From a virus: a stretch of DNA of 39,072 nucleotides. The stretch covers positions 1 to 39,072 of IMG/VR virus record IMGVR_UViG_3300025085_000069, one strand, 5' to 3'. The position numbers and the translations under genes were made by a program. The notes under the pieces were generated by a model that was not told the DNA's origin, did no database searches, and saw only the letters and a program-made list of their open reading frames with translations. Below, piece by piece: positions 4,765 through 36,987 of the stretch; the first letter of the stretch is position 1, and each line of letters begins with the position of its first letter.

Positions 4765-4772
4765 TTGAATGG

Positions 4773-14376: not shown

Positions 14377-14661
14377 GTGAATTGGAGAACCGTTCTAAAA
14401 CAAGACGAGGAATTCTCCAAAGAATCTCTTGCTCAATTGGGTAAGAAAATGTCTGTTGGAGCAATTGGCATATTTGACATAGCAGAAAATTTTGAGCGTG
14501 AAGGTTTTCAAGTTGAATATATAGATTCTAATAAGGGAGAAAGCCCTGATGGTGTTTCAGTATCTAAAGACGGAAAACTGCTAGGCTCAATCTTCTATAA
14601 GATATTTGGCGGAGAGTTGTTGGGGAATGTTAATCCTGTAGAGAGTGTGATTTCTTCGTAA
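14377..14661 (+). CDS. W-ILK-tagged small protein, 94 aa
   Basis: GTG start behind AGGGTGAT. The N-terminus MNWRTVLKQDEEF is the recurring tag of this region. The rest contains a helix (ESLAQLGKKMSVGAIGIFDIAENFEREGF) and strands (VEYIDSNKGESPDGVSVSKDGKLLGSIFYKIFGGELLG). The body matches no family that I know. It is the first tagged gene of the late block. Confidence 0.7.
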   Translation: MNWRTVLKQDEEFSKESLAQLGKKMSVGAIGIFDIAENFEREGFQVEYIDSNKGESPDGVSVSKDGKLLGSIFYKIFGGELLGNVNPVESVISS

Positions 14662-14696
14662 AAATTCCGAGTGATTTTTGAAATATTTTTAGGTGA
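14660..14696 (+). repeat. Intergenic ATTCCGAG repeat, copy 2
   Basis: Starts at the stop codon of 14377-14661 and runs ATTCCGAGTGATTTTTGA then AT-rich sequence up to the GGTGAG ribosome site of the next gene. The 3' part (ATATTTTTAGG) also matches copy 1. Confidence 0.5.
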
Positions 14697-14701
14697 GCAA
14701 A

Positions 14702-15076
14702 ATGAGTTGGGAAACTGTGTTGAAGGAATTTGGCGAGTATGGCTTTCCCGTAGGTGATGAGCGTAATGAGAAATCACGGGTGGCTAATGAGAGATTTAAT
14801 AAAGAAATAAGAGAGATTGCGGGGAGGGTTGCTAATTCCTTATCTATGGTGGAGGATTTAGAAGTGGTTAGGAGAAAAACTGATAGCGGTTTGGAAAGAC
14901 CTATCGGGCTTCTTTTTGACAACCTCGCTGATTTACTAGAGGCAAAAGCCGATTTTATAATGGAGGCTATTGAAATTGAGGGAGATACTTTAGATTCTAG
15001 AAGAACAAGACCTTCTTTAGATGAAGCGGTGAAAAATATGCGGGAATTGGCAAAAAAATTCCGAGCCAAATTTTGA
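14702..15076 (+). CDS. W-ILK-tagged small helical protein, 124 aa
   Basis: ATG 14702 behind AGGTGAG; an upstream GTG at 14693 is in frame but overlaps the ribosome site. Tag MSWETVLKEFGEYG, then a long helical region (RVANERFNKEIREIAGRVANSLSMVEDLEVV...LFDNLADLLEAKADFIMEAIEIEGD) ending in ELAKKFRAKF. The end codes through repeat copy 3. No known family. Confidence 0.7.
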   Translation: MSWETVLKEFGEYGFPVGDERNEKSRVANERFNKEIREIAGRVANSLSMVEDLEVVRRKTDSGLERPIGLLFDNLADLLEAKADFIMEAIEIEGDTLDSRRTRPSLDEAVKNMRELAKKFRAKF

Positions 15077-15079
15077 GAA
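15054..15079 (+). repeat. 26-bp direct repeat, copy 3 (coding end of 14702-15076)
   Basis: Identical over 26 bases to 15303-15328. Here it encodes the last residues K-F-R-A-K-F and the stop, whereas the other exact copy is intergenic. Confidence 0.6.
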
Positions 15080-15091
15080 AAAGTGATTGTT

Positions 15092-15304
15092 ATGTGGGAA
15101 AAAATCTTAAAATATCTGTCCGATGCTCCGAGAGATGTTGGTGAAAAAATTGACCAATTAAAAGAGGATATTGACGACTACCGAGCATTTGTGTATAAAC
15201 TATCAAGGGCCGAATATTTAAGTGAATATGAACAAGAAGCCTTTTCTGAAATGACTCAACTGTTTAATAAACTTACAAAACTTATGGATGATATTTACGA
15301 ATAA
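15092..15304 (+). CDS. W-ILK-tagged small protein, 70 aa
   Basis: ATG 15092 behind AGTGATT; GTG 15083 is an alternative. Tag MWEKILKYLSDAP, then helices (DVGEKIDQLKEDIDDYRAFVYKLSRAEYL and EAFSEMTQLFNKLTKLMDDIYE). Helical hairpin-like, no family match. It lies between the two exact 26-bp repeats and so could be an inserted cassette. Confidence 0.68.
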   Translation: MWEKILKYLSDAPRDVGEKIDQLKEDIDDYRAFVYKLSRAEYLSEYEQEAFSEMTQLFNKLTKLMDDIYE

Positions 15305-15328
15305 AATTCCGAGCCAAATTTTGAGAAA
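15303..15328 (+). repeat. 26-bp direct repeat, copy 4 (intergenic)
   Basis: Exact copy of 15054-15079, placed after the TAA of 15092-15304. Its frame would again read K-F-R-A-K-F-stop but is cut off from any start. Confidence 0.6.
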
Positions 15329-15341
15329 TTTAGGTGATATT

Positions 15342-15596
15342 ATGTGGAAAGATGAGATTAAAAAGCAGGAATATAATGAAGCCGACTTCTTTATGACGGA
15401 AGAAGCAGTTGAGGGGAAAGTTGGAGAAAAAATACAAGAAATGTATAGTATGGCGGAAGAACTATCTAAAATGCAGAACATTTTGAGTAGCCCCGACTTT
15501 CAACGAGGTTTTCCAAAGTATTCATTGAAAGAAATTGAGAAGGCTGTAAAGGGACTAGGTATGGCCGTTAGTGCTATGGAGAGTTTTCCTTCGTGA
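15342..15596 (+). CDS. MWKDEIKK-tagged small protein, 84 aa
   Basis: ATG 15342 behind TAGGTGAT. Tag variant MWKDEIKKQEYNE, followed by helices (EEAVEGKVGEKIQEMYSMAEELSKMQNILSS and KEIEKAVKGLGMAVSAMESF). The same eight-residue start occurs at 15613 and 15827 with nearly the same DNA, although the bodies differ. Confidence 0.68.
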   Translation: MWKDEIKKQEYNEADFFMTEEAVEGKVGEKIQEMYSMAEELSKMQNILSSPDFQRGFPKYSLKEIEKAVKGLGMAVSAMESFPS

Positions 15597-15612
15597 AAGA
15601 GGATGTGAGATT

Positions 15613-15810
15613 ATGTGGAAAGATGAAATTAAGAAACAAAGGTCAGATGAACAGCAAACTAGAATGGACGCTATGGATTTTGCTGAAACTATTATAAGCA
15701 GAATTGAAGCAGAACTTGCTAGGAATTCCCTTAAAGTAGATAAAGATAGGCTCTTAGAATTTAGACAAACCCTAAGAGAATTGTTCTTAGAAGCCGCCGG
15801 ATTAGAATAA
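15613..15810 (+). CDS. MWKDEIKK-tagged small protein, 65 aa
   Basis: ATG 15613 behind GATGTGAG. Tag MWKDEIKKQRSDEQQ, followed by a single long helical region (ETIISRIEAELARNSLKVDKDRLLEFRQTLRELFLEAAGLE). No family recognised. One of three neighbouring copies of this tag variant. Confidence 0.66.
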   Translation: MWKDEIKKQRSDEQQTRMDAMDFAETIISRIEAELARNSLKVDKDRLLEFRQTLRELFLEAAGLE

Positions 15811-15826
15811 AATTGGGAGTGATATT

Positions 15827-16135
15827 ATGTGGAAAGACGAGATTAGGAAAAACATAAGATTTGTAGATAAAGAGGACGATGTAGAGATTACTACTACAAA
15901 TTTGCTTGCCCCAAGCAGACTTGTAGATGCTAAAATTGCTGAACAATTCTCAAGCCTACACAAAGACCTGCAAAGAATGGGGCCTAATATTTTAGAATCG
16001 GCACTTAGGATTTACAATGAAAATGTCGGCCCTAATGGTAAACCAATTGACATTTCTGTTAGTGAATTAATCCCATTGTTGCATCAATTAGAAATGGCTA
16101 TGAGAGGCTATGTTCAGTATTTTGAGCGAAACTAG
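15827..16135 (+). CDS. MWKDEIRK-tagged small protein, 102 aa
   Basis: ATG 15827 behind GGGAGTGAT. Tag MWKDEIRKNIRFVD. The C-terminal part (SELIPLLHQLEMAMRGYVQYFERN) resembles the end of the 15342 protein (KEIEKAVKGLGMAVSAMESF) in helix pattern, so the two may share an ancestor. Function unknown. Confidence 0.68.
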   Translation: MWKDEIRKNIRFVDKEDDVEITTTNLLAPSRLVDAKIAEQFSSLHKDLQRMGPNILESALRIYNENVGPNGKPIDISVSELIPLLHQLEMAMRGYVQYFERN

Positions 16136-16153
16136 GTTTGAGACTGTGATAAA

Positions 16154-16393
16154 ATGTCCGATTGGCGAGCCGAGTTAGCAAGAGATGGTATCACCTCTCG
16201 TCAAAAAAGGTTAATTTTTGATATTTTGACTGGTGGTTCGGAGATTTCGCTAAAAGGTATTGTTGAAGGCTTAACAAATCGGGGAATGAAGCGGGTTACT
16301 AAGTCAAAAATTAGAAAATATTTAATCAATGAGCCAAAAATTACGAAAAAGACTGATATTCATAATCAAACAATTTACAAAATAGTGGAGTGA
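16154..16393 (+). CDS. Tagged winged-helix protein, 79 aa
   Basis: Starts MSDWRAELARDG, a looser form of the tag, followed by a winged-helix-like domain (TSRQKRLIFDILTGGSEISLKGIVEGLTNRGMKRVTKSKIRKYLINEPKI and strands DIHNQTIYKIVE). It is probably DNA-binding. If the tag delivers proteins into the virion, this could be an injected regulator; that is conjecture. Confidence 0.62.
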   Translation: MSDWRAELARDGITSRQKRLIFDILTGGSEISLKGIVEGLTNRGMKRVTKSKIRKYLINEPKITKKTDIHNQTIYKIVE

Positions 16394-16399
16394 CTATAA

Positions 16400-16864
16400 A
16401 TGTGGTTTGACATTCTAAAATCGGTTGAATTGATGGCCGAAAGTAGTGTTTTGAGCCGCATGGAGGGTGCAAAATCGGCTGTTGAGAAGGGTTATCCTTC
16501 AATTATTACGCCATTAACGCTTGTTGTCAAGAAAGAAGGCGAAAAATTGGTTGCTTACACTTCATTTAGCGATTTTGGTGACTTTTTCTTTGTTGGTAAT
16601 TCGTATACTGTTCCGGATGAGCAAGGAAAGGGCTACTATTCGCAAGTTATGTCATCTAGAAATGATTACACGAAGGGAAAACCGAGAGTTACGCTTTTGA
16701 ATCCTTTAGATGATAGGTCTATTTCTGTTACGAGAACAATGGTTCGGCGTGGCGGAGGTAAAGAGATACAATCTTATGATGATGTTAGCGATTTTATGAA
16801 GAAAAAGGACTACGATGGTATGTTTTCTACAGGATTGATTGGATTTAGGTATCCGGTTTTGTGA
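16400..16864 (+). CDS. Tagged GNAT-like acetyltransferase, 154 aa
   Basis: Tag MWFDILKSVELM at the start, then a GNAT-like core: strands LTLVVKKEGEKLVAYTSFSD, then SYTVPDEQGKGYYSQVMSSR, which matches the acetyl-CoA-binding motif A pattern (V-P-x-x-Q/R-G-K-G-Y). RVTLLNPLDDRSISVTRTMVRRGG follows. The substrate is unknown. A packaged or host-modifying acetyltransferase is an attractive reading given the tag, but not shown. Motif A is good; the rest is divergent. Confidence 0.62.
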   Translation: MWFDILKSVELMAESSVLSRMEGAKSAVEKGYPSIITPLTLVVKKEGEKLVAYTSFSDFGDFFFVGNSYTVPDEQGKGYYSQVMSSRNDYTKGKPRVTLLNPLDDRSISVTRTMVRRGGGKEIQSYDDVSDFMKKKDYDGMFSTGLIGFRYPVL

Positions 16865-16867
16865 GGT

Positions 16868-17413
16868 ATGACTATGAAAGTAAAAAACAGGCAAGAATTG
16901 ATAGATTCTTTTTCGGAAGGTAAGCCGGAAATGCGAGAGGTTGTAGCCGAGCGAGACGATGTTGCTCAAGTGGATGAAGATTCTTTCAAGGATTTTTGTT
17001 GTAGGAAGGCACATGGCGAAACGATTGAATTATTGGAGGATATTCTTGCTAAATATAAGAAAGGGGAGCCTAGACCGCCGTTTGAAGGCGCATTAAATAT
17101 GTTAAAGAACAATCCTTCTTGTGATTTGGTCAAAGAGTATTTGATGCAAATATCAAAGAGAAAGAAGTATGGTAAAACAATTCCTAATCCTCAAAATAAA
17201 AAGATAAATCCTTTTGTTATTAGAGCGGGAGAAATCCTTGATGATTTAGAGCGTTGCGAAGGCATGAAGAAATCTTGGTTTCAACAATTGAAGAAAGAGG
17301 AAGAGACCGAAAAGGTAGCGGGAGCGATAACTACTTCAAGTGTTGCCCATTCACATCTCTTTAAGCCGACTTACGGAAAGCGCCGTAAGCGTAAGAAAAA
17401 GAAGGAGGAGTGA
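16868..17413 (+). CDS. Hypothetical protein with internal tag-like motif, 181 aa
   Basis: Starts at ATG 16868 or 16874, after GTGAGGT. The first two-thirds is helical (ETIELLEDILAKYKKGEPRPPFEGALNML...). At about residue 138 the sequence KKSWFQQLKKEEE copies the W-xx-LKxE tag, and a very basic tail follows (GKRRKRKKKKEE). It may be a fusion of an untagged protein with a tagged one. No family recognised. Confidence 0.65.
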   Translation: MTMKVKNRQELIDSFSEGKPEMREVVAERDDVAQVDEDSFKDFCCRKAHGETIELLEDILAKYKKGEPRPPFEGALNMLKNNPSCDLVKEYLMQISKRKKYGKTIPNPQNKKINPFVIRAGEILDDLERCEGMKKSWFQQLKKEEETEKVAGAITTSSVAHSHLFKPTYGKRRKRKKKKEE

Positions 17414-17415
17414 GA

Positions 17416-17520
17416 ATGAGTTGGAGAAACGCCATTAAAAAAAGGAAAGAGTTAGGGACACATGAACATGGCGTTCAACAAGAAGATTTGCCAACCACGA
17501 TTGCACTCCGGATATGTTAA
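17416..17520 (+). CDS. Very short tagged protein, 34 aa
   Basis: ATG 17416 follows GGAGGAGTGAGA. It encodes MSWRNAIKKRKELG and 20 more residues ending in IALRIC. It is little more than the tag plus a tail and may be a decayed gene or a bare tag. The last 22 bases nearly match 13996-14017. Confidence 0.5.
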   Translation: MSWRNAIKKRKELGTHEHGVQQEDLPTTIALRIC

Positions 17521-17558
17521 GAGAAATGCAATTCCAATTAGATAATAGGTGAGGAAGT

Positions 17559-18560
17559 ATGGCAAAGAAAGTGCAGAAGGTCACCGCTAAGGTTGGAGAT
17601 GCTACTCTAGAAAGAAGAGGTACAATCAGTTTTCCCGAAAAATACAAAAAATGGGAGAATCAATGTAGGAATCTTGGGCCGAGTAAAATTGGTGGTAAGG
17701 TGTCTTTATTGGCTTGGCTAAAAAAACACGGAGAACCTTCTAAAAAAGCGTCTAGGGCTAATTCTCCTAATACTGGTCTTTCGGGGATGGGTGTCACAAT
17801 AGATAAGATTAATGAAATTCTCAATAATCGTCTCAATGGAATTTACTACGAAAAAGATGTTGAAGATTTTGAGGATATTCTAGATGATTTATCGGTGTAT
17901 GATAGCGGTGGAGACCTTGACCCTGCTATGATTCCTTTCACCACTTACCCAACAAGAAGTGGTAAGGTCATCCCCGATGCAGAGTCAATCACTATTTATG
18001 GTCACTATATTGACGAATATTTTGAAGCAAAAGGTTGGGGAGGAACAGGAAGCCCGAAGGCTAGTGCCGCAAAAGGATGGCTTAGTCAGACAGCAGGTGA
18101 GGGAAATCCTCCGATTAAGCAAGCCATTTTTGGTGGGCCTTTATTTGGGGCTGGTCTAAGCCTAAAAGAAATTATTGAGGTTGCCATTAAGGAAATTAAC
18201 AATATCGGTTATATTCTTGAAGTTAAGACGGGTCGTTCTCCTGTAGCGTTGGTCAATGTTCCATCGTTTAGAAGTAAGTTGGCTGGTGCTGTTCGTTCTT
18301 CTTTAGTGGATGGAAACATTAGCGTTAAGCAAGTGCAGAGCAAGATGAACAATGTTCCGTTCAAGATTGAAGGGGATAAAGAGAAGGCTTTCGTTGCGGC
18401 TTATTCCAAGACTCAAGGTGTTGCTGGCGAGTTTGAGGCTTTTGAAGTAAACATGAGTCCGGCCAATACAAAGAAGGTTATTGAGACTTGGATGTCTACT
18501 TCTAGAGGTGTCAAGGAACGAGACATTGTGAAGTCTTGGGTTGATATTGTGAGGGTTTGA
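17559..18560 (+). CDS. Hypothetical protein, 333 aa
   Basis: ATG 17559 behind AGGTGAGG. It has no tag. A basic N-terminus (AKKVQKVTAKVG) is followed by an acidic middle (KDVEDFEDILDDLSVYDSGGDLD), then Gly-rich segments and helices. No family is recognised. The position upstream of the small terminase candidate suggests a structural or packaging role. Confidence 0.7.
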   Translation: MAKKVQKVTAKVGDATLERRGTISFPEKYKKWENQCRNLGPSKIGGKVSLLAWLKKHGEPSKKASRANSPNTGLSGMGVTIDKINEILNNRLNGIYYEKDVEDFEDILDDLSVYDSGGDLDPAMIPFTTYPTRSGKVIPDAESITIYGHYIDEYFEAKGWGGTGSPKASAAKGWLSQTAGEGNPPIKQAIFGGPLFGAGLSLKEIIEVAIKEINNIGYILEVKTGRSPVALVNVPSFRSKLAGAVRSSLVDGNISVKQVQSKMNNVPFKIEGDKEKAFVAAYSKTQGVAGEFEAFEVNMSPANTKKVIETWMSTSRGVKERDIVKSWVDIVRV

Positions 18561-18561
18561 T

Positions 18562-18789
18562 ATGTGGAAGAAAATTTTGAAGAGCGAAAAGGAATACATT
18601 GTCATAAGCCAGCCTTATGAAAATGAATTTAATCAAAAAGAGATTGCTGTTGGATGGGGATATGGTGATGGGGGAGAAGGCCCCGAAATCGCTACATTTA
18701 CCGATAAGAGCCGAGAGGATGTTCACGATTGGGTAGAGGATTGGTTAAAGAGAAATCAGTATAAAAGAATTGATATTGAATACGAGTGA
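18562..18789 (+). CDS. W-ILK-tagged small protein, 75 aa
   Basis: ATG 18562, one base after the upstream stop. Tag MWKKILKSEKEY, then strands (IVISQPYENEFNQKEIAVGWGYGDGGEGPEIATFTDKSRED) and a helix (VHDWVEDWLKRNQY). A compact beta-alpha protein with no family match. Confidence 0.68.
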   Translation: MWKKILKSEKEYIVISQPYENEFNQKEIAVGWGYGDGGEGPEIATFTDKSREDVHDWVEDWLKRNQYKRIDIEYE

Positions 18790-18798
18790 GGAAATAGC

Positions 18799-19452
18799 AT
18801 GAGAAGAAAAAGTTGCTCTTTCTGCCAACATGAAAATGTTGATGCTCTAGAAAAGGAGTTGGAAGAGTGCCTTATCGCTTGTGATGATTTAGACCAAAGA
18901 GAAGGCTGGCGTAGTGGAACTGCCGCCCAACACCAACGAAACCACATGGGCGACTATGTGAGCAGTAGTAATCCTAAATGTAAACTCTGCACCGACCCTA
19001 TGCGAAAGCAGTATGAAACAGGGCTGAGTGAAGGCAGACTTGAGACTCAAATCGTTGCAGATATTTTGGAAACTTCTAAGGAGCAGATTCAGCGCCACAT
19101 GAAACATCATCTTGCTCCTCTTGTTCAAGAGTCTGCGGCTACAATTATTGCCAAGAAGGAAGTCAATGAGGTGGATATGTTGGCAAACAACCTTACGGTG
19201 CTGGATGATAAACTCACAGAGATTGCTTCACGGGATGATTTGGATGCTAAGGAGTTAGATGCTTTGGTTAAGTTGGCTAGAGAAATCCGTGAGTCGTTGA
19301 AATACATGATGGAATTCAAGGGCAAACTTGTGCATAAGAGGCAGGATACGATTATCATTGCACAGATGCAAATTGTTCAAGAGGTTTTAGCGCAGGGTCA
19401 TCCGGAAGTTTGGCTTGATGTTAAGAAGAAAATGCAGGAGAGATTACAATGA
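18799..19452 (+). CDS. terS: Candidate terminase small subunit, zinc-finger type, 217 aa
   Basis: Would recognise viral DNA for packaging with the large terminase. It has an N-terminal CxxC (CSFC), then CKLCTDPMRKQYETGLSEGRLETQIVADILETSKEQIQRHMKHHL, a Cys-plus-helix-turn-helix pattern common to small terminase-like proteins of environmental tailed viruses. The C-terminus (LDALVKLAREIRESLKYMMEFKGKLV and following helix) suits oligomerisation. It precedes the large terminase with five genes between. Family call by pattern; moderate certainty. Its last 16 bases are copied downstream as repeats. Confidence 0.62.
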   Translation: MRRKSCSFCQHENVDALEKELEECLIACDDLDQREGWRSGTAAQHQRNHMGDYVSSSNPKCKLCTDPMRKQYETGLSEGRLETQIVADILETSKEQIQRHMKHHLAPLVQESAATIIAKKEVNEVDMLANNLTVLDDKLTEIASRDDLDAKELDALVKLAREIRESLKYMMEFKGKLVHKRQDTIIIAQMQIVQEVLAQGHPEVWLDVKKKMQERLQ

Positions 19453-19460
19453 GTTGGAAA
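19436..19460 (+). repeat. 25-bp junction repeat, copy A
   Basis: Contains the end of 18799-19452 (GAGAGATTACA...) and the first codons of the next gene (TGAGTTGGAAA). Copies B (19693-19717) and C (19911-19935) match except for the A/G that makes the start codon ATG or GTG. Confidence 0.65.
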
Positions 19461-19694
19461 AAAATATTGAAACAAGATGAAATATCTCGAATGAAAGATT
19501 CTCTAAACGCTAATATGGATTTATTTAATGATTATTTTAAAAAAATGGAAGAGTTAATGGGTTCCCTTGAGTCTCAACAAATAGAAAAAGCAGAAAAACT
19601 TTGGACGGATATGCAAGGCATGGTAAAAGATGTTGAGGGCTTAGGCTTACACAAAAATATTCACGCTTACTTAAACAGGATTATTTTAGACTAG
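19449..19694 (+). CDS. W-ILK-tagged small protein, 81 aa
   Basis: ATG 19449 overlaps the stop of the small terminase candidate (ATGA). Tag MSWKKILKQDE, followed by helices (MDLFNDYFKKMEELMGSLESQQIEKAEKLWTDMQGMVKDVEGLGL). It is flanked by junction repeats A and B. Confidence 0.68.
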   Translation: MSWKKILKQDEISRMKDSLNANMDLFNDYFKKMEELMGSLESQQIEKAEKLWTDMQGMVKDVEGLGLHKNIHAYLNRIILD

Positions 19695-19717
19695 GAGAGA
19701 TTACAGTGAGTTGGAAA
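19693..19717 (+). repeat. 25-bp junction repeat, copy B
   Basis: Lies at the TAG of 19449-19694 and holds GAGAGATTACAG plus the first codons of the next tagged gene. The left half is a non-coding copy of the terminase gene's end. Confidence 0.65.
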
Positions 19718-19912
19718 GATATTGTAAAAGAGGACTACCCCGAAATCGTTTGGACAAACGAAAAGAAAACTATGGGATATGTTGATGGAAGAGGCCCTTA
19801 TACCAAAGAATCAATTGCTACGGAATTGAAAAGAGTCGGGACTTACGACAAAAGAAAGGAATTCATTTCTGTTCGTGGTGGACAAACCCCTACTGAATCG
19901 GCGTGGGAATAG
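19706..19912 (+). CDS. W-ILK-tagged small protein, 68 aa
   Basis: GTG 19706 behind AGGAGAG. Tag MSWKDIVKEDYPE, followed by strand-rich sequence (IVWTNEKKTMGYVDGRGPYTKESIATELKRVG). Flanked by junction repeats B and C. No family match. Confidence 0.66.
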   Translation: MSWKDIVKEDYPEIVWTNEKKTMGYVDGRGPYTKESIATELKRVGTYDKRKEFISVRGGQTPTESAWE

Positions 19913-19935
19913 GAGAGATTACAGTGAGTTGGAAA
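19911..19935 (+). repeat. 25-bp junction repeat, copy C
   Basis: Covers the end of 19706-19912 (TAG inside AATAGG) and the start of 19924-20142. Identical to copy B. Confidence 0.65.
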
Positions 19936-20142
19936 AATATTCTAAAAAAGGATTTGACTTCGGAACAGAAGTCGGAAACTGATGCATATGTTTCTTCTCA
20001 AGATTCAATAACAGTCCGAAAGGTTATGCAACACTTGTTGAAGAAACTTGGGTTTGTCAAAGGTTCAGTTGGCCGTAGGGACATTGAGAGATACCTTGAG
20101 GAAAAGTATCCGGATAAGTTGGAACATCGGCGGTCTTATTAG
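19924..20142 (+). CDS. W-ILK-tagged small protein, 72 aa
   Basis: GTG 19924 in junction repeat C. Tag MSWKNILKKDLTSEQ, then SITVRKVMQHLLKKLGFVKGSVGRRDIERYLEEKYPDKLE, a helical body that could be a small DNA-binding or adaptor fold. No family assignment. Confidence 0.66.
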   Translation: MSWKNILKKDLTSEQKSETDAYVSSQDSITVRKVMQHLLKKLGFVKGSVGRRDIERYLEEKYPDKLEHRRSY

Positions 20143-20153
20143 GGGGGGTTGCT

Positions 20154-20612
20154 ATGAGTTGGAAAAATATTATCAAAGAGGATGAAGATGATGATTTTCC
20201 TCGTTATGTCCCAAGAGATGGTGCATATGTTACAGTAGAAGAACAAGAAGAAAGAGGACGGTATCTATTTGATAAGAAAAATGTAGGGCGAGTTTATCGC
20301 AACAAAGTAAATGGGAAAAATTATGTTTTTAACAGGCTCTACAATAATGGAGAAATTGAATTGGTGAGCCAGCCCGAAGAGAAAGAATCTCTAACCATGC
20401 GAGAACAATTACAGGCATCTATTGACAAATTGAAAGAAGCGCAAGGTAAAGAAGGGGAAAATCCAAATCTTGATGCGGCCATAAAGAATACTCAATTATT
20501 AATGGAAAACGAGGACGATGAGGTGCTTGATTACAGACCAACTGAAAAAGAAACGGTTCACCGAATTACACCAGTATTTGCATTAAATTATGAATTATTG
20601 CCGGAGCAGTAA
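20154..20612 (+). CDS. W-ILK-tagged small protein, 152 aa
   Basis: ATG 20154 behind GGGGGGTTGCT. Tag MSWKNIIKEDEDDDFP. The middle has strands (VGRVYRNKVNGKNYVFNRLYNNGEIELVS), then an acidic helix (TMREQLQASIDKLKEAQ), giving a Tudor- or SH3-like look in the middle, but this is a guess. No known family. Confidence 0.68.
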   Translation: MSWKNIIKEDEDDDFPRYVPRDGAYVTVEEQEERGRYLFDKKNVGRVYRNKVNGKNYVFNRLYNNGEIELVSQPEEKESLTMREQLQASIDKLKEAQGKEGENPNLDAAIKNTQLLMENEDDEVLDYRPTEKETVHRITPVFALNYELLPEQ

Positions 20613-20624
20613 GGTGAGAAAATA

Positions 20625-22340: not shown

Positions 22341-22344
22341 AAAA

Positions 22345-24771: not shown

Positions 24772-24775
24772 TACA

Positions 24776-26203
24776 ATGGAAATAACCCAATTCAACCTAG
24801 AGCATCAAATGGATTTGTCGCTCTCCCAAAAATCATTTGCGTATTTTTTTGAGCATGTTCTAGGTTTCCAAATGACAGACCATCAACTAGAATGGTTGTC
24901 TCTTATGGATGAAAGCAATCGTAATGTCATTATTTGTAGCCGTGGTCACGGTAAGTCTGTTTTTATGCACTCTTGGGTTGCTTGGAATCTACTCTTCCAA
25001 CCCGCCCCTTACCAAATTGTCTACATGTCTTCTAACCAAAAGCAGACAAACATGCACATGAAGTCAATTGACAAACTGTTCAACAATCCTATTCTATCGG
25101 CATTCAAACCAAAGGGCGCAAAGGGTTGGGCCGTAGAAGAAATGAATTTGACAAACGGAAACTCAATCGTAGCCCGTTCTGTAAACTCGCAGGTTCGTGG
25201 CCTTCACCCTCAAGAGATTATTATTGACGACCCTTTGAAAGAATTCAGTCTTGTAGGTATCCAAAAAGTCACTGATTGGTTTTTTGGTGATATGATTCCA
25301 GCCTTGCACCACACCGCTTCTTTACGAATTATTGGAACGCCTTTCTCCTATACTGACATCTATTCCCAACTTGAAGAAAATTCTCAATATCTTGTAAGAA
25401 AGTATCCTTGTTTGAATGCACTCAACGAACCTCTTTGGCCGGAAAGATGGGATTACGATTCTTTGATGAATAGAAAAGCAGAAATTGGTTCACTCAAGTT
25501 TACAAGAGAATACATGTGTGTACCTATTGCCACAGGAACCTCTCTGTTTAATCCTGAATATCTTGAGAATGCTAAAAATAAGAATTTCGTCCTTTCTTCT
25601 AGAAGAAGAGAAGGGTGTAAATATTATGCCGGTATTGACCCTGCTATTTCTACAGACGGGGACTACAATGTAATCACTGTCATTGAAGTTGATGAAAATG
25701 ACAATAAATCAATTGTTTACATTGACCGAGCAAAGAATGTAGAGTTTAGAGAAAATCTACAAAAGGTTAGACTGATAGGTAAAATTTTCAATCCGGAAGT
25801 GGTTCTATTTGAAACAAACACTTTCGCAAAGTCATTTACTCAAGAGTTGAGGAATATCTCCGACATCAATGTGCATGATTTCAATACAACAAGAAAGAAG
25901 AAGCAAGACATCATTCTAAATCTACAAATGAATTTTGAAAATTCTAAAATTCATTTGCCTTACGGCAATGAAGAAAGTAGAAGAGTCACTACAGCCCTCA
26001 TTGAAGAATTATCTATGTTTTCAATTACCGAAAAGGGTAAGTTTGAGGGTGTTGGAGCGCATGACGACATGGTTATGAGTCTTGCTTTAGCAAATGCCGC
26101 TACTCAAAGAGCAAGTGAAAATTTCTTATTGTTGGACGATATGGGCTTATTTAATGAGAGGCCGTTTTCTCCTTTAAGAGGCATACAAGGTTTGAATTTT
26201 TGA
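24776..26203 (+). CDS. terL: Terminase large subunit
   Basis: ATP-driven DNA packaging motor with nuclease. Residues 54-61 CSRGHGKS form the Walker A, and IIIDDP (148-153) the Walker B. The C-terminal RNase H-like nuclease shows GIDPAIS with D288, E346 in VVLFETNTF, and HDD (D430/D431) in GAHDDMVMSLALA. At 475 residues it is of usual length. ATG 24776 follows the GGTGA that also contains the upstream stop. Confident. Confidence 0.95.
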   Translation: MEITQFNLEHQMDLSLSQKSFAYFFEHVLGFQMTDHQLEWLSLMDESNRNVIICSRGHGKSVFMHSWVAWNLLFQPAPYQIVYMSSNQKQTNMHMKSIDKLFNNPILSAFKPKGAKGWAVEEMNLTNGNSIVARSVNSQVRGLHPQEIIIDDPLKEFSLVGIQKVTDWFFGDMIPALHHTASLRIIGTPFSYTDIYSQLEENSQYLVRKYPCLNALNEPLWPERWDYDSLMNRKAEIGSLKFTREYMCVPIATGTSLFNPEYLENAKNKNFVLSSRRREGCKYYAGIDPAISTDGDYNVITVIEVDENDNKSIVYIDRAKNVEFRENLQKVRLIGKIFNPEVVLFETNTFAKSFTQELRNISDINVHDFNTTRKKKQDIILNLQMNFENSKIHLPYGNEESRRVTTALIEELSMFSITEKGKFEGVGAHDDMVMSLALANAATQRASENFLLLDDMGLFNERPFSPLRGIQGLNF

Positions 26204-26212
26204 GGTTTAAAT

Positions 26213-27814: not shown

Positions 27815-27815
27815 T

Positions 27816-28034
27816 ATGTGGTTTGAGATTCTTAAGAAGAAAAAGAAGAAGAAAAAGAAGTATAAGTCCCCTACCGGCGTCTACACTAAGCCTAAACTAA
27901 GAGAGAGCATACACGCTACTTTACTTGGTGAGAATACTCATGGAACTGCCGCAGGTCAATGGTCTGCTCGTAAATCTCAAGAATTAAATAGACGGTATCA
28001 AAAGGCAGGTGGTGGCTTTGTCAATAAAAAGTGA
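27816..28034 (+). CDS. Tagged small basic protein (first half of a WSARK...GGG family), 72 aa
   Basis: ATG 27816; an in-frame ATG at 27807 is less likely. Tag MWFEILKKKKKKKKK with a pure lysine run. Then LRESIHATLLGENTHGTAAGQWSARKSQELNRRYQKAGGGF, which I know as the N-terminal part of a small basic protein family found in many aquatic viruses. The C-terminal part of that family seems to be the next gene. Role unknown. Confidence 0.66.
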   Translation: MWFEILKKKKKKKKKYKSPTGVYTKPKLRESIHATLLGENTHGTAAGQWSARKSQELNRRYQKAGGGFVNKK

Positions 28035-28284
28035 TTGGTGGAACACTATCAAAGGCTTAACGGATAAGCAAAAAGACATGGTAGAATGGAACAAAGAGAA
28101 TTGGCAATCTCTTGGTGATGGAAAGAATGACAGGTATGCTCCTAAAGCAGTAGCGGATTCTCTTACCTCCGACCAAAAAGCATATGAAAATAGAAAAAAA
28201 AGTGAAGGAAAGAAAAAAGGAAAACAGCATGTCCCTAGAGGAAAGACCGCTAAAAAGGTGTATAGGAGAGTTGAAGGAAGATGA
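28018..28284 (+). CDS. Tagged small basic protein (second half of the same family)
   Basis: A TTG at 28018 or GTG at 28009 starts a frame with SDWWNTIKGLTDKQKDMVEW, again tag-like, then NKENWQSLGDGKNDRYAPKAVADSLTSDQKAYENRKKSEGKKKGKQHVPRG. That pattern (W-x-R-Y-x-P-K-A ... KKKGKQ) belongs to the C-terminal part of the family started by 27816-28034. It overlaps that gene. Either a split gene or two partners; start uncertain. Confidence 0.58.
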   Translation: MSIKSDWWNTIKGLTDKQKDMVEWNKENWQSLGDGKNDRYAPKAVADSLTSDQKAYENRKKSEGKKKGKQHVPRGKTAKKVYRRVEGR

Positions 28285-28706
28285 TGCTAGACTGGATGAT
28301 TATACTAAAAGAACTGACTTGCCCTAGAGCAACACAGGATTTAAAACTTAATACAAAAAACCGTAATGAGGCTATCAAAGATGAGGACATCAAGTACGGT
28401 CCTCTTAATATTGATGAACCGGCTGATTATTGGGAGAAGGTGGCTGAACATTGGGATACATCAGTAGAGGCCGCTAAGAAATCAAAGTGTTCTAATTGTA
28501 TTGCCTTTGACATCAGCCCAAGAATGAAAGACTGTATGCCTATTGTGGATGTTAAGGGTGGTCTTGGCTATTGTTGGATGCACGATTTCAAATGCCACGA
28601 AGATAGAACCTGTTATACATGGGCAAAGGGTGGGCCAATTACCAAAGATGAGAAGTCCAAGAAGAATCAAATGAAGCGTGAAGAACCGGAGGATGAGGAA
28701 GAATGA
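28281..28706 (+). CDS. Tagged Cys-rich protein, 141 aa
   Basis: ATGA overlap with the upstream gene. Tag form MLDWMIILKE. The body has C-x2-C (KCSNC) and later MKDC, GYCWMHDFKCHEDRTCYTWAKGGP, a six-Cys pattern reminiscent of proteins holding an iron-sulfur or zinc centre, like the high-potential iron-sulfur type. An acidic tail (EEPEDEEE) follows. Cofactor unknown. Next gene overlaps by four bases. Confidence 0.66.
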   Translation: MMLDWMIILKELTCPRATQDLKLNTKNRNEAIKDEDIKYGPLNIDEPADYWEKVAEHWDTSVEAAKKSKCSNCIAFDISPRMKDCMPIVDVKGGLGYCWMHDFKCHEDRTCYTWAKGGPITKDEKSKKNQMKREEPEDEEE

Positions 28707-29113
28707 GTTGGAAAGATATTTTGAAGGCTAGTTGTGGTAGCCACAGAGAAAAGATTGATACTGAAAAGGGTGGATGTGGATGTGCTTCCTGCGAAAAGCA
28801 ACAGTTTGAAAAGAAACTGGTTGGTAATCAAAAAAGAATTGATGCGAACAATGACAAAAAAATCACAAGAGAGGATTTTAAAATCCTTAGAAACCGCAGA
28901 AGAAAAAAGGTAAAGAAAAGCATAGAAGAGGAAATCCTTGAAGAAGTTGAAGATGAAGGCGGTGCTTTAGGAATGAAAAATCTAAAGGATATTGCTGACA
29001 AAAAGAAACTCAAAGAAACCCTTTCGTCTATGGAAGATAGAGAGATGATTTTTGAGCATGAGGACGGAGATTTCTATACTCACGAACCGAAAAGAGATAA
29101 GAAAAAGCGGTGA
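28703..29113 (+). CDS. Tagged EF-hand-like protein, 136 aa
   Basis: Tag MSWKDILKASCG, then a CGCASC cluster. Next comes RIDANNDKKITREDFKILR, which fits the 12-residue EF-hand calcium loop (D-x-N-x-D-x-K-I-x-x-x-D). The rest is charged with a basic end. Calcium binding could act as a structural switch in the virion or in seawater sensing, but this is speculation; the loop itself is clear. Confidence 0.7.
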   Translation: MSWKDILKASCGSHREKIDTEKGGCGCASCEKQQFEKKLVGNQKRIDANNDKKITREDFKILRNRRRKKVKKSIEEEILEEVEDEGGALGMKNLKDIADKKKLKETLSSMEDREMIFEHEDGDFYTHEPKRDKKKR

Positions 29114-29114
29114 A

Positions 29115-29471
29115 ATGATGGGTTGGCAAGACATTCTCAAGAAGAAGCCTAAGAGCGCAAGGTCAAAGGCAGTAGAAAGGGCTAAGGCAAAGGGGCTTAG
29201 AACTGTTAATGACCCACAGGCTCTTAGAGACGACCCCAAAAAATCTCATCATGTCATGGCTTTTGAAGGCAAGAAAGCAAAATACATCAAGTTTGGACAA
29301 AAGGGAGTTAAAACCAATCAAACTGCTGGACAACGCCGAGCATTCAAATCACGCCATGCAAAAAACATCAAGCGTGGAAAAATGTCTGCGGCTTATTGGG
29401 CTGATAAAGTAAAGTGGAGTCCGAGCAAGACTAAAGAGAAGAAGAACAAAAAATGGCGAAAGGGTTCGTAA
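29115..29471 (+). CDS. Tagged small basic protein, 118 aa
   Basis: ATG 29115 (or 29118) behind GCGGTGA. Tag MMGWQDILKKKPKS. The C-terminal part (FGQKGVKTNQTAGQRRAFKSRHAKNIKRGKMSAAYWADKVKW) is a recognisable small viral family with the RHAKNI...AAYW...W pattern. It is strongly basic, so it may bind nucleic acid. Function unknown. Confidence 0.7.
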   Translation: MMGWQDILKKKPKSARSKAVERAKAKGLRTVNDPQALRDDPKKSHHVMAFEGKKAKYIKFGQKGVKTNQTAGQRRAFKSRHAKNIKRGKMSAAYWADKVKWSPSKTKEKKNKKWRKGS

Positions 29472-29533
29472 AGCCCAAAGCAATTAAAAAGGCGAAACCA
29501 TACATTTTGATTAGGGGGCTTTACCATGGCTGA
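29453..29533 (+). CDS. Possible tiny basic protein, 26 aa
   Basis: A frame MAKGFVKPKAIKKAKPYILI and 6 more residues overlaps both flanking genes. It fills the gap before the portal gene, but composition alone does not prove coding. Weak call. Confidence 0.25.
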   Translation: MAKGFVKPKAIKKAKPYILIRGLYHG

Positions 29534-31163
29534 AAAACGACGATTTTCATTCACGAATTTGTTCCGCCGAACAACTCCTAAACCTTACGATAGAAAGGTC
29601 TACAATGTGGGAATTCAAGAGCGTGAGCAGTCATACATGATGACGGCTCCCCTCGTTTACAGTGTTGTTCAACAATCTGTTATCGCAAGAACCTGTATTA
29701 CACAATTGAAGCAAGAAGTTTTTCGCAGAGGGTATGTTTGGCAAAAGGCCTTTGAATCAAAATGTAAGACCTGTCAAAAAACACACAAAATGCCAGTGCA
29801 GGAGTGTTCAAGATGTGGTTCTACAGAACTTGAAAGGCCCGACCCTAAACAGTTGGAGTTTGCTGAAAGATTCATTGAAGGGTATGTGAATAGTTCGGAA
29901 CAAAAATTTATTGATGTTTTTAAGGAATTAGAAGATGACCTAAATATTATGGATGATGCCTACATTGTTCTTGTTAAGGAATATTATTTAGATGGTAATG
30001 GTAAAATTCGTATGCATCGTATTAAGGAAATATACAGAGGCGACCCCGTGACAATGAATATTTATGCTGATGAAGTAGGTGTCCGTGGAACAAGAGGATT
30101 CACTTGTATCAACCATAGAAACCATATGGCTCCCGAACCACACGAAAACTGTCAAGAATGTGGAGGACCTGTTTACCCAGTGCATTATGTTAATCGTGCA
30201 AATGGAGAAGAGCAGTATTTTATTGAAGGCGAGGTTCTTCATTTCAGTAAATACAGTCCCAGTAGACTTTATGGGCAGTCGCCAGTCCTTACTTTATTCA
30301 ACAACATTATGACTCTCATCGCTATGGAAAATTATGTCAATTCCTCTTACACCAAGAGCCGTATGCCAAGAGGACTACTTGCTGTTCAAACAAGAAATAT
30401 GGATTCTATGGCGGCTTTTTGGCGAGGAGTTAAAGAAAAGATGGAACAAGACCCCCACTACATTCCTGTTATGGGTATTGAAGCCGAGAACGGAAAGGGT
30501 TCTGTTGAATGGATTAAATTCATGGACAGTCTAAAAGAAATGGAATATGTTGCTGTCAAAGATGACTTACGAGACCGTATTTCAGCCTTTTATGGAGTAA
30601 GTAAAGTTTTCATGGCTGACAATACTACAAGCGGTGGTTTGAATAACGAAGGTATGCAAATTCTTGTCACTAACAGGGCCGTTCAAATGGCACAAAATGT
30701 CTACAACAATTATGTATTCCCGTTCCTTGTAAAGCAATTTGGCATTACAGATTGGATTCTTGAACTTCCTCCAAGCGAAGAAGAAGATGAGATAGCAGTT
30801 CTTCGCAAGAGAGAATTAGAAGTCAATATTGCTGCTTCTACTAAAAATTTAGGATTTGATGTGGACATGGATGAGGACGGCCAATTCACTTTCACAAAAC
30901 CGGAACCTAAAGAAACTCCGCAAGGAGAAGAGGGTGAGCCGGTAGAAACGAATCCTATGGCTGGTTCTAGTGTAGACCAAAGAGAATTAGCAGAAGCACA
31001 AATGGCTATGTTGGAAGGAGGGGGTTCTAAACCCCAAGAGAACCCTCCAGCCACAAGGAATAAAGCAAGGAATAGCGTAGGGCCGGACAAGCGGCTTACA
31101 GGACTACCACAGGAAGCCGGAAATCAAAATGTGGATAGAAGAAGTGAAAGGAGAGTTGGTTAA
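29526..31163 (+). CDS. Portal protein with two zinc-ribbon insertions
   Basis: 545 residues. Position between terL and the protease, and features such as VVQQSVIARTCITQLKQEVFRRGY, HFSKYSPSRLYGQSPVLTLFN and the DDLRDRISAFYGVSKVFM segment, fit HK97/SPP1-type portals that form the dodecameric DNA gate. Two zinc ribbons are inserted: C80, C83, C94, C97, and C194/His with C209, C212. Such ribbons are unusual in bacteriophage portals. The C-terminal 90 residues are Pro/Gln/acidic and disordered. ATG 29526 behind AGGGGGC. Confidence 0.82.
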   Translation: MAEKRRFSFTNLFRRTTPKPYDRKVYNVGIQEREQSYMMTAPLVYSVVQQSVIARTCITQLKQEVFRRGYVWQKAFESKCKTCQKTHKMPVQECSRCGSTELERPDPKQLEFAERFIEGYVNSSEQKFIDVFKELEDDLNIMDDAYIVLVKEYYLDGNGKIRMHRIKEIYRGDPVTMNIYADEVGVRGTRGFTCINHRNHMAPEPHENCQECGGPVYPVHYVNRANGEEQYFIEGEVLHFSKYSPSRLYGQSPVLTLFNNIMTLIAMENYVNSSYTKSRMPRGLLAVQTRNMDSMAAFWRGVKEKMEQDPHYIPVMGIEAENGKGSVEWIKFMDSLKEMEYVAVKDDLRDRISAFYGVSKVFMADNTTSGGLNNEGMQILVTNRAVQMAQNVYNNYVFPFLVKQFGITDWILELPPSEEEDEIAVLRKRELEVNIAASTKNLGFDVDMDEDGQFTFTKPEPKETPQGEEGEPVETNPMAGSSVDQRELAEAQMAMLEGGGSKPQENPPATRNKARNSVGPDKRLTGLPQEAGNQNVDRRSERRVG

Positions 31164-31528
31164 TGAACTGGAAACTAATTTTGAAAAGTGCAAAACCTCG
31201 GTGGTCTGCTTTTTTTTCCGAAAACGATATTACCGAATTCATTAAAAATGCAAAAAAGAAATCAGACGAGGATTTTGAGACCCACGGTTTTTATATGGAC
31301 CAATTTTATGCACTAAGCGACAAATACAATATTCCTAGAAATTCTGCCCAGTTTATATTGCGGAGCCACAATAAGGACAACTATTACAATATTAAGCCAA
31401 TCACAAGTGTTGAATCTTATAATTCTGAAAATAGAAAAGTAATTGAACGCAAACAAAAGGAAAAAATGAAGGAAAGAGCAAATCGTCCACCCCGAAGAAA
31501 AGGTCAAAAGAGGAGGTCTCGTAGATGA
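31163..31528 (+). CDS. W-ILK-tagged protein, 121 aa
   Basis: TAATG overlap with the portal. Tag MNWKLILKSAKPRW, then helices (DITEFIKNAKKKSDEDFETHGFYMDQFYALSDKYNIPRNSAQFIL) and a very basic C-terminus (KQKEKMKERANRPPRRKGQKRRSRR). Nucleic-acid binding is likely. No family match. Confidence 0.68.
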   Translation: MNWKLILKSAKPRWSAFFSENDITEFIKNAKKKSDEDFETHGFYMDQFYALSDKYNIPRNSAQFILRSHNKDNYYNIKPITSVESYNSENRKVIERKQKEKMKERANRPPRRKGQKRRSRR

Positions 31529-31746
31529 CTGATACAGCAAGAAAAGAAAAACAATTAGTAAAGGAATTAGCAAAAATCCGTTCGCAAAGAGCGGCGGAAG
31601 ATAGAGTAGTAAAGAAAAATAGAGATTTTTCGTTGGGAGGATTACCGCCCGACACGACTCACACAGCAAAAAGGGGTTCTGCGGATACTCCCGATGTTGT
31701 TCAACTTCCTGTTAAGAGAAGGCCTAGAACAGAAAACAAATGGTGA
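31525..31746 (+). CDS. Hypothetical basic protein, 73 aa
   Basis: ATGA overlap with the upstream gene. A helical N-terminus (TARKEKQLVKELAKIRSQRAAEDRVVKK), then a disordered Pro-rich end (LPVKRRPRTENKW). No tag. Function unknown. Confidence 0.6.
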   Translation: MTDTARKEKQLVKELAKIRSQRAAEDRVVKKNRDFSLGGLPPDTTHTAKRGSADTPDVVQLPVKRRPRTENKW

Positions 31747-33383
31747 GTGTTGTGATTTTGGAGAAAGCCCAAAGACAACCTAGGAAAATTCCTAGACTTT
31801 CTCCCGAAGCGAAGCAATCCATCATTGACTCTACAGAGAAAAATATTGAGACATTAGAGACAGCACAAAAAATAATGGCTAGTGCTATCAAGGAAGCCCA
31901 AGAACAAATCAAAAATGCAATTAGAGAAGAGAAGGAAAAAAACACTCAAGAAGAGGAAGAAGATAAAAAAACCGATTCTGTTAAAGTGTTGGGTTCTTAC
32001 ATTGATTTGGATGTTAAGGCTTCGGAAATCAAAGATGAAGCCGAAGAATATGTTGTAAACAGTTTACCTAGAAGGGCTAGAGAATTGATTAAACCAATGA
32101 TGTTTTCTACGGAATGGGTCAGTGAAACAGGTCAATTTGGGGACAAGTATTCCTACCGTAAAGAGATTAAAACAGGTTCTCTTATTCAAACCGTTAAAGA
32201 AGCGATAAAGCAAGAAAAGCAAGACTTAGCAAGATACAAGACGGCAGAAGAATCCGAAGCAGAGGAAATTGAGGAGCAAGTTGAGGAGTTGGATAAGGAT
32301 AAACCGAGAGAAGAAAACCTCAACGCTTTCATCAACGAAGAAATAGCGGGTATAGACCCCGAAACAGGAAAGCCCATACCTAAACAGTTTAAATTTGATT
32401 ATGTCAAACTATTGGAAGCCTTGAAATCGGCTTTAATTGTAGATGATTTAAAGAATTTACTAGAGGCAGGGGGAACAATTACCAATGAGCAACTTGAAGA
32501 AGTGCAAATGGTATCTCAAGAATTAGAAGAGTCAGTTGCTCTCACTACTAACATTCTTTCTCGTATGGGGGTGAGAGATGTGGACGGTATTCGTAATTTA
32601 ACCAAGGCATTGATTTCCGTTTCAAGAACCATGAAAAAAGATAAGAGAGAAGGAGTGGACTTCATAGAGAGTCAAATTAGCGCCCTACAAGAAAGACTAC
32701 AAGGTTTTGAAGAACCGGAGGGACATAAAATTACTCCTAAAACACTCAAAATGCTTAAACAAATAAAGAGCATGTTGGAGAATCTAGACAAAACGAAGGG
32801 AGAAGATTTAGAAATCCTTGAAGTTTTAGGCAAAGGAAACATCGCTAAAAATAATTTTTCTTTCCTAAAAAAGGTCAAGGCGAATGCCGAAAGTGCATTC
32901 TATAACCATGTTCCATCGGGTAAAAATTTCTTTATGCCGCTTATTGAACAACCTACGAAAAATAAAGGTAATCGTTATTTTGAACCGAAAAGGTCGGGTA
33001 AACGAATGGAAGCCTATAGAGAATTGGAAAAATTGGGACGAGACATTCACAGTTTGCTCAATAAAGAAGATGAAGGAAAAGCCCTCATTGAATTATTACG
33101 GGATGTTTATCGTTCTATGACGGGGCAGATTCTAGATATAGGGGCCGAAAAAGACCTCAAAAGAAAATTTAAGGACGAGAGAAGGAGAAGGATGGCCTTA
33201 ATTAGAGATTCACAAGAAGATACTTCGGAAGAATTTGACGAGGAAGAAATTGCTGATGTAAGAGAGAGACGAAAGGAAATCAAAGAGCGTGAAGAAGAAT
33301 ACATGAAAGAACGGGCTCAAAAGATAGCAGAAAGAAAAGCCAAAGAGGAAGCCGAAAGAAAAGCCAAAGAGGAGGACGAATGA
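31740..33383 (+). CDS. Large coiled-coil hypothetical protein, 547 aa
   Basis: ATG 31740 overlaps the upstream gene's stop. Long heptad-rich helices run through most of it (TEKNIETLETAQKIMASAIKEAQEQIKNAIREEKEK) and the end is a tandem repeat KAKEEAERKAKEE. The middle contains VSETGQFGDKYSYRKEIKTGSLIQTVK. No family is recognised. Between portal and protease, so a head or scaffold-associated protein is possible. Confidence 0.72.
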   Translation: MVSVVILEKAQRQPRKIPRLSPEAKQSIIDSTEKNIETLETAQKIMASAIKEAQEQIKNAIREEKEKNTQEEEEDKKTDSVKVLGSYIDLDVKASEIKDEAEEYVVNSLPRRARELIKPMMFSTEWVSETGQFGDKYSYRKEIKTGSLIQTVKEAIKQEKQDLARYKTAEESEAEEIEEQVEELDKDKPREENLNAFINEEIAGIDPETGKPIPKQFKFDYVKLLEALKSALIVDDLKNLLEAGGTITNEQLEEVQMVSQELEESVALTTNILSRMGVRDVDGIRNLTKALISVSRTMKKDKREGVDFIESQISALQERLQGFEEPEGHKITPKTLKMLKQIKSMLENLDKTKGEDLEILEVLGKGNIAKNNFSFLKKVKANAESAFYNHVPSGKNFFMPLIEQPTKNKGNRYFEPKRSGKRMEAYRELEKLGRDIHSLLNKEDEGKALIELLRDVYRSMTGQILDIGAEKDLKRKFKDERRRRMALIRDSQEDTSEEFDEEEIADVRERRKEIKEREEEYMKERAQKIAERKAKEEAERKAKEEDE

Positions 33384-33384
33384 T

Positions 33385-33735
33385 ATGTGGGAATTAGTAT
33401 TGAAGGAAGATAAGATAAAAAAAGAGAATAGCCCTATTCTTGAATCATTGGATGAAAAGAAAAGAAAGCGAGTCAAGAAAACGCTACAGACGGCTGAACC
33501 TACCGAATATTTCGGTCAAGACTTCACCCAACTAGGCGAATTAATTGACATGCTTAAAGAATTACAATTCATCAAATCCGATGAAAAAATGGTTAAGAGA
33601 TTCAAATCCATAGATGAAAGGAACATTGATATGTTGGCCCTATCTAGCAAACTCCGTAAGGAGTACGAATTGCTTTACAGACAACTTCGTGAAATCGTTT
33701 ATCCAAAGAGAAAGGGGGATTTGAGAGATGAGTGA
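33385..33735 (+). CDS. W-ILK-tagged protein, 116 aa
   Basis: ATG 33385, one base after the upstream stop. Tag MWELVLKEDKIKKEN, then charged helices (QLGELIDMLKELQFIKSDEKMVKRFKSIDERNIDMLALSSKLRKEYELLYRQLREIVYPK). Overlaps the next gene by eight bases. No family match. Confidence 0.68.
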   Translation: MWELVLKEDKIKKENSPILESLDEKKRKRVKKTLQTAEPTEYFGQDFTQLGELIDMLKELQFIKSDEKMVKRFKSIDERNIDMLALSSKLRKEYELLYRQLREIVYPKRKGDLRDE

Positions 33736-33952
33736 AACCGAAGAAGAAATGTTGGGAGTTTTGAAAGCCCTTGTAGAAAGAATTCAATCCCTTGAAAAAA
33801 CAGTGTATCATCAAGATAACCTTTTGATGAAATCCGGATTCGTTGTTGCCAATTCACCTACGCCTTCCATGACCAACTCCACTCTACCCGCAGGGGATAT
33901 GATTCACAAGATGTCGTGGGACGACATAGAAAAATTCGTTAATGGACGGTGA
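33728..33952 (+). CDS. Small coiled-coil protein with C-terminal tag, 74 aa
   Basis: An N-terminal coiled coil (TEEEMLGVLKALVERIQSLEKTVYHQDNLLM) is followed by a Pro/Thr/Ser linker (SPTPSMTNSTLPAGDM), ending HKMSWDDIEKFVNGR. The last residues reproduce the tag (MSW-x-DI-x-K) at the other end of the protein. The protease-scaffold protein ends the same way. Confidence 0.68.
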   Translation: MSETEEEMLGVLKALVERIQSLEKTVYHQDNLLMKSGFVVANSPTPSMTNSTLPAGDMIHKMSWDDIEKFVNGR

Positions 33953-36959: not shown

Positions 36960-36987
36960 TCAATTAGACAACGAGGGGTTGGGAAGA

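Follow-up and report, generated by a model that had tools for sequence, protein, structure and literature searches.

The IMG/VR virus record IMGVR_UViG_3300025085_000069, whose 39,072 bases we refer to in full as the window, holds the terminase large subunit, portal, S78 prohead protease with scaffold domain and the start of the major capsid protein of a magrovirus-like virus, and among these genes a short peptide, [S/T/N]-W-[K/E/Q]-[D/N/E]-I-L-K, recurs at the ends of many unrelated small proteins. We consider it probable that this peptide is a portable terminal tag which recruits variable late proteins into the prohead, as the capsid targeting sequence of bacteriophage T4 does. No published report of the tag was found in literature searches.

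The tag in the window and in related viruses

A sequence-only reading of the window had listed 21 tagged starts, and all of these exist and translate as described, but they are not of equal strength when scored in bits with a weight matrix derived from relatives (214 unrelated protein clusters) (Table 1; genes are named by the first coordinate). Fifteen score 12-21 bits, three (15342, 15613 and 15827) carry a MWKDEI[KR]K variant, of a W-K-D-E-I-K type with one extra residue, and three (16154, 17416 and 28018) are loose. The first of the loose ones may be a degenerate tag, because its counterpart in G003 (a near-full-length relative with a terminase 91% identical to that of the window) reads MSWRDDLARDGI, while the tag of 28018 begins a few residues after a TTG/GTG start. 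Strict N-terminal tags were found on 15 of the 70 called genes, compared to a mean of 0.017 and a maximum of 2 in residue shuffles, and a chance origin is excluded. Terminase, portal and capsid proteins have no N-terminal tag, as had been noted earlier, and nor does the protease. Beyond the 21 starts, the tag is also present at the extreme C-terminus of the 17559 protein, and a related motif ends two scaffold-like proteins.

The window terminase has 345 relatives in IMG/VR, and 80 of those loci were used for counting tags. They contain 702 copies of W-x-x-[ILV]-[ILV]-[KR], with 572 lying no more than 4 residues from a start codon, all of them on the head-gene strand. In 459 of these W is at position 3. 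Another 47 copies are at most 25 residues away from a C-terminus, and the other 83 lie in different places, some between fused domains. The consensus over the 214 clusters is [S44 T14 N13]-W100-[K E Q]-[D N E]-I84-L71-K98 (percent), and an alignment of 137 proteins, one per cluster, reads MSWxxILK with W3 invariant. Each genome has 11-23 N-tagged genes, and N-tagged proteins are found in 247 BLAST clusters. Since 112 of the 214 tagged clusters are confined to one record each, the tagged proteins are a fast-changing accessory set. The same consensus is carried by clade II, whose query terminase is ~54% identical to that of the window (180 N-terminal, 4 C-terminal and 15 internal copies).

The exact MSWKDILK DNA pattern occurs in 76 stretches across all of IMG/VR, of which 64 share at least 2 genes with these viruses, and 7 of the remainder carry start tags. 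A looser pattern is rare against a cellular background, giving 12 matches in 145 genomes (from the phylum of a Thermoplasmatales metagenome-assembled genome, MAG) compared to 3 in the 39-kb window alone.

Within the viruses the tag is confined to the packaging and head side, as judged on 8 near-full-length genomes. N-terminal tags are carried by 130 of the 268 genes lying from -18 to +7 kb of the terminase and by 6 of 129 between +7 and +20 kb, but by 0 of 147 further genes of the head strand (the tail side) and 0 of 497 on the opposite, replication strand. A run of neighbouring tagged paralogues of ~220 amino acids (..ILKxVITQxRV..) was seen at 56915-60859 of G013 (L095/L096), which suggests amplification of a cargo gene. 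The tag clusters of G019 (the contig with L034, a record of 184,733 bases) lie ~94 kb apart, perhaps through tandem or chimeric assembly of two genomes.

Portability of the tag and the bodies behind it

The tag is not tied to the start codon. In the 17559 family it is C-terminal on 15 of the 36 cluster members, some members of a family upstream of the terminase end in it, it lies between domains where neighbouring genes have fused, and one protein (L084 1460-2587) has it at both ends. The L008 homologue of the 16868 protein also finishes with a C-terminal tag (..MKKSWFKVLKERT). An apparent switch from N- to C-terminal tagging inside the cluster upstream of the terminase was set aside, as that cluster really includes two adjacent families linked by fused genes. 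The body of the 29115 protein occurs as a stand-alone protein in ~40 marine bacteriophages, with a copy in Roseobacter phage CRP-13 that is up to 71% identical and untagged, and the body of the 27816 protein (phrog_17747) is likewise untagged in pelagiphages. As the tag can be C-terminal, inter-domain or double-ended, and a tagged body has untagged bacteriophage homologues, the tag is a portable peptide address and not a start-codon effect. Three adjacent genes (19449, 19706 and 19924) share both the leader aggagagattaca and the tag, suggesting that the tag spreads together with its leader. An N-terminal tag is present on 40 of 40 members of the 28281 cluster, and 14 of 76 are tagged in the 33385 cluster.

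Two further conserved protein ends were seen. Several different bodies, mostly with an N-terminal tag as well, finish in another common C-terminal module, ..EKVAGAVTTSSAAHSHLFRPTYGxRRKRKKK (window 16868-17413; L009:844-1419, L011:1111-1692, L014:563-1207 and L015:809-1555), and an untagged protein of 808 amino acids upstream of the terminase (window 22345-24771) has a conserved C-terminus, ..VYFVKANFR (..IYKIKGLFR in clade II), which is possibly another terminal signal.

Searches of 137 tagged representatives against Pfam and PHROGs gave almost nothing beyond the PAP2 phosphatase family, the sole strong Pfam match, which occurs in ~12 relatives and whose active-site signature seems complete. 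For the 16400 protein a GNAT fold is confidently predicted (AlphaFold and Foldseek; predicted local distance difference test, pLDDT, 89), in support of the GNAT-like body proposed earlier, while its tag residues 1-6 are below pLDDT 50 and are predicted to be disordered beside the folded body, which makes the tag a flexible end. Of the other bodies proposed, the EF-hand of 28703 is weak (E 0.0024, below the Pfam cut-off), the winged helix found no support in Pfam, and the 28281 Cys-rich family gave a poor AlphaFold model (pLDDT 41).

A possible route into the prohead

Late proteins carry the tag on a flexible end, mostly N-terminally but sometimes C-terminally or between fused domains. If it acts in head assembly, it could form a short helix, capped by Ser/Thr/Asp, that has W (i), I (i+3) and L (i+4) on one face. 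This helix would bind a partner on the growing scaffold or capsid core and thereby load the cargo, which would be trapped in the head and then released into the cell along with the genome. The cargo set would be exchangeable, with a putative GNAT acetyltransferase here and a putative PAP2 phosphatase in relatives. The partner may be a surface also used by the C-termini of the protease-scaffold and 33728 proteins (M-[S/D/E]-W-x-[D/E]-[I/L]). These two ends score 7.6 and 7.1 bits on the tag matrix, values that shuffles reach in ~0.14-0.18% of C-terminal scoring windows, and relatives keep M-[S/D/E]-W-x-[D/E]-I-H-K-M-V. Clade II has retained the core, M-S/D-W-x-[D/E]-[I/L], with drift in the remainder. 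This suggests a binding site that may be shared by tag and scaffold ends.

There are several points that weigh against prohead targeting. In clade II the end of the small scaffold-like protein has drifted (WSDLDSLV, -6.4 bits) but ILK is unchanged in the tags, which reduces the shared site to a sub-hypothesis; the tag and the scaffold end do not co-vary strictly from one clade to the other, and mimicry is retained at that lower level. Some tagged genes of clade II, few in number, are found tens of kb away from the terminase on the same strand, and some conserved head-region proteins of the same module are untagged. Removal of the tag by the prohead protease, which the sequence-only reading had included, is without sequence support, as no in-register cleavage site was found after the tag and conservation has dropped to the background level soon (a few residues) after the core; there is a weak charge preference at +6/+7 and no in-register conservation beyond +7, with which a variable cleavage site is still compatible. 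Finally, as packaging and injection are proposed from sequence, docking to another partner retains some of the probability. Protease removal apart, prohead targeting is the best-supported reading of the tag, given its head-side confinement, the unrelated bodies, the likeness to scaffold ends and the match to the T4 design.

Other explanations of the tag

The rival that we take most seriously, while thinking it unlikely, is that the tag docks late proteins to one partner outside the capsid, such as a host machine, a viral hub or the viral chaperonin, with the proteins acting unpackaged in the producing cell. The tag resembles generic docking peptides in being short and in lying terminally on a flexible end, the viruses encode a Cpn60 chaperonin, and some bodies are enzymes (GNAT, PAP2) able to act in an infected cell; however, a general hub is hard to fit to the absence of tags from the replication-strand genes and, in the 8 genomes, from the tail-side genes, and the scaffold-like proteins have a related motif at their end. 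That same likeness to scaffold C-termini, and the position of the genes beside portal, protease and capsid, could instead mean that the tag assembles a multi-protein core, of which the tagged proteins are structural or scaffold parts that are degraded or leave the head at maturation, but this seems improbable, as the many single-record clusters are unlike essential core proteins and the enzyme folds point to cargo.

The two remaining explanations concern how the tag arose. A favoured late start sequence or mRNA effect that happened to encode MSWKDILK would be in keeping with the leader shared by three adjacent genes and with the biased codons at S(-1), K1 and D2, but it is refuted by the C-terminal and inter-domain copies and by the Ile, Leu and Lys codons, which vary much as they do genome-wide, and untagged genes lie within the same operon; we give it very little credence. 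Slighter still is the case for common descent, in which the tagged genes arose by duplication and divergence from a single gene, leaving the tag as residual homology. Some are tandem paralogues (six in G013), but common descent of the bodies was rejected on the 247 clusters, and the presence of the tag at either terminus, the untagged bacteriophage homologues of one body and the unrelated folds indicated by GNAT and PAP2 all argue the same way.

The virus and its other genes

Magrovirales, which are linked to Poseidoniales archaea, have genomes of 90-110 kb in which the strand that does not carry the head genes encodes a replisome (PolB, RFC, ATP ligase) and a chaperonin (PMC10768690, PMC12999244). 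The relatives studied here have a layout of this type (Pfam on G003 and gene layout), the replication strand of G003, opposite the head genes, encoding a split PolB, an RFC small subunit, a Cpn60 chaperonin and an ATP ligase, and their contigs are 84-97 kb, some slightly under the published range. Magrovirus-like, which rests on gene layout, is the safe name. This is an ocean virus family, probably with archaeal hosts, of which we infer Poseidoniales to be the likely ones; terminase matches in MAGs were uninformative for calling the host, being mostly binning artefacts in bacteria.

Outside the tagged genes, the window has two adjacent tRNA genes, Leu(taa) and Arg(tct), on the replication strand (4681-4844). 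In the gene that follows the terminase (26213-27814), one segment resembles HNH endonucleases (phrog_5046, E 9e-6) and could be a homing endonuclease insertion. A second ATP-ligase-like protein of 833 amino acids lies inside the head gene cluster (34458-36959; PF01068 E 2.9e-28) and was found in each of the 8 genomes compared, and relatives also have a normal DNA ligase of ~509 amino acids on the replication strand.

Table 1. Tagged genes and head-gene landmarks of the window, with scores on the tag matrix.
Position	Strand	Feature	Bits	Other evidence
14377..14661	+	N-tagged protein VNWRTVLK	12.6	
14702..15076	+	N-tagged protein MSWETVLK	15.4	
15092..15304	+	N-tagged protein MWEKILK	17.0	
15342..15596	+	Variant tag MWKDEIKK	10.4	
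15613..15810	+	Variant tag MWKDEIKK	10.4	
15827..16135	+	Variant tag MWKDEIRK	5.6	
16154..16393	+	Putative degenerate tag MSDWRAELAR	-5.4	G003 relative MSWRDDLAR
16400..16864	+	N-tagged protein MWFDILK, predicted GNAT fold	20.1	AlphaFold; Foldseek
16868..17413	+	Degenerate internal tag (MKKSWFQQLKK) and second shared tail		
17416..17520	+	Open reading frame of 34 amino acids, MSWRNAIKKRKELG	6.4	L009 relative of 60 amino acids
17559..18560	+	C-tagged family member, end IVKSWVDIVRV, tag 18531-18557	8.4	
18562..18789	+	N-tagged protein MWKKILK	17.4	
19449..19694	+	N-tagged protein MSWKKILK, with leader	17.4	
19706..19912	+	N-tagged protein VSWKDIVK	18.3	
19924..20142	+	N-tagged protein VSWKNILK	20.0	
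20154..20612	+	N-tagged protein MSWKNIIK	18.6	
24776..26203	+	Terminase large subunit, untagged		phrog_38 E 2.9e-57
27816..28034	+	N-tagged basic protein MWFEILK		phrog_17747
28018..28284	+	Loosely tagged basic protein (..SDWWNTIK)	9.2	phrog_14910
28281..28706	+	N-tagged Cys-rich protein (M)MLDWMIILK		
28703..29113	+	N-tagged protein MSWKDILK, weak EF-hand		
29115..29471	+	N-tagged basic protein MMGWQDILK		phrog_7595
29526..31163	+	Portal, untagged		phrog_18178 E 3.3e-67
31163..31528	+	N-tagged protein MNWKLILK	15.3	
33385..33735	+	N-tagged protein MWELVLK		
33728..33952	+	Small scaffold-like protein, C-terminus (33911-33949) MSWDDIEKFVNGR		
36979..38166	+	S78 prohead protease and scaffold domain, C-terminus (38122-38163) MSWSDIHKMVGGNI		Pfam PF04586
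38168..39070	+	Major capsid protein, untagged, cut by window end		phrog_24667

Significance and comparison with known systems

Packaged and injected proteins are known from a few bacteriophages, each with few recognisable tags. Here, in a marine group that is widespread as judged from the 345 terminase relatives matched in IMG/VR, each virus has a near-invariant code on a dozen genes or more. If it is a prohead address, then hundreds of unannotated proteins are probably cargo of the virion and become candidates for a part in host takeover or counter-defence. Poseidoniales, the probable hosts, are uncultured, and the tag offers a short, testable peptide for the study of protein loading into an archaeal virus head. 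A bolder proposal, which we hold to be rather more doubtful than probable, is that viruses of abundant marine archaea have a universal loading code in one position-independent terminal peptide. New genes would then turn into injected cargo on acquiring ~7 residues, and every virus would bring into the archaeal cell, along with its genome, a changing arsenal of at least 12 proteins (acetyltransferase, phosphatase, DNA-binding and others), much as effectors are sent out by a secretion signal, with the code read at the site that the scaffold C-terminus uses.

The scaffolding proteins of P22 and phi29 have capsid-binding C-termini and resemble, by description only, the short and probably helical C-terminal segment of the scaffold-like proteins here. 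The cargo-loading peptides of encapsulins and the encapsulation peptides of microcompartments are short terminal (N or C) peptides that bring unrelated cargo into a shell; these are again likened by description only, and differ in not being viruses with genome ejection.

T4 is not the only phage with N-terminal packaging signals, as P1 DarB and SPN3US show. The N-terminal 30 residues of DarB, an injected anti-restriction cargo, are enough to send a reporter into the P1 capsid, and no consensus among the Dar proteins was found by BLAST (PMC9024508). This is an N-terminal packaging signal of the kind proposed here, but with no consensus where ours is near-invariant. SPN3US and phiKZ package many proteins in the head, whose conserved N-termini have been proposed to act like the T4 targeting sequence (PMC5694885), but their propeptides are mostly longer than 100 residues with a clear cleavage motif, compared to 7 residues here.

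The T4 internal proteins are targeted to the prohead by a 10-residue N-terminus in which residues 4 and 7 matter most (PMC9026906). The tag differs from this in lacking residue-level similarity (the tag matrix gives -3.7 to -14.6 on ipI/II/III) and a visible cleavage site, in its 11-23 N-tagged genes per genome, in occurring C-terminally and between domains as well, and in that the protease here is S78-type. The designs are nevertheless alike in that a short N-terminal peptide is borne by several unrelated, poorly conserved proteins (IPI-III and Alt in T4) and in that a prohead protease is encoded in the same genome. The MKTYQEFI of T4 ipII/ipIII has the same class order as the tag (T/S, aromatic, polar, acidic, two hydrophobics), with the key residues 4 and 7 of T4 being the aromatic and the i+3 hydrophobic of the shared spacing.

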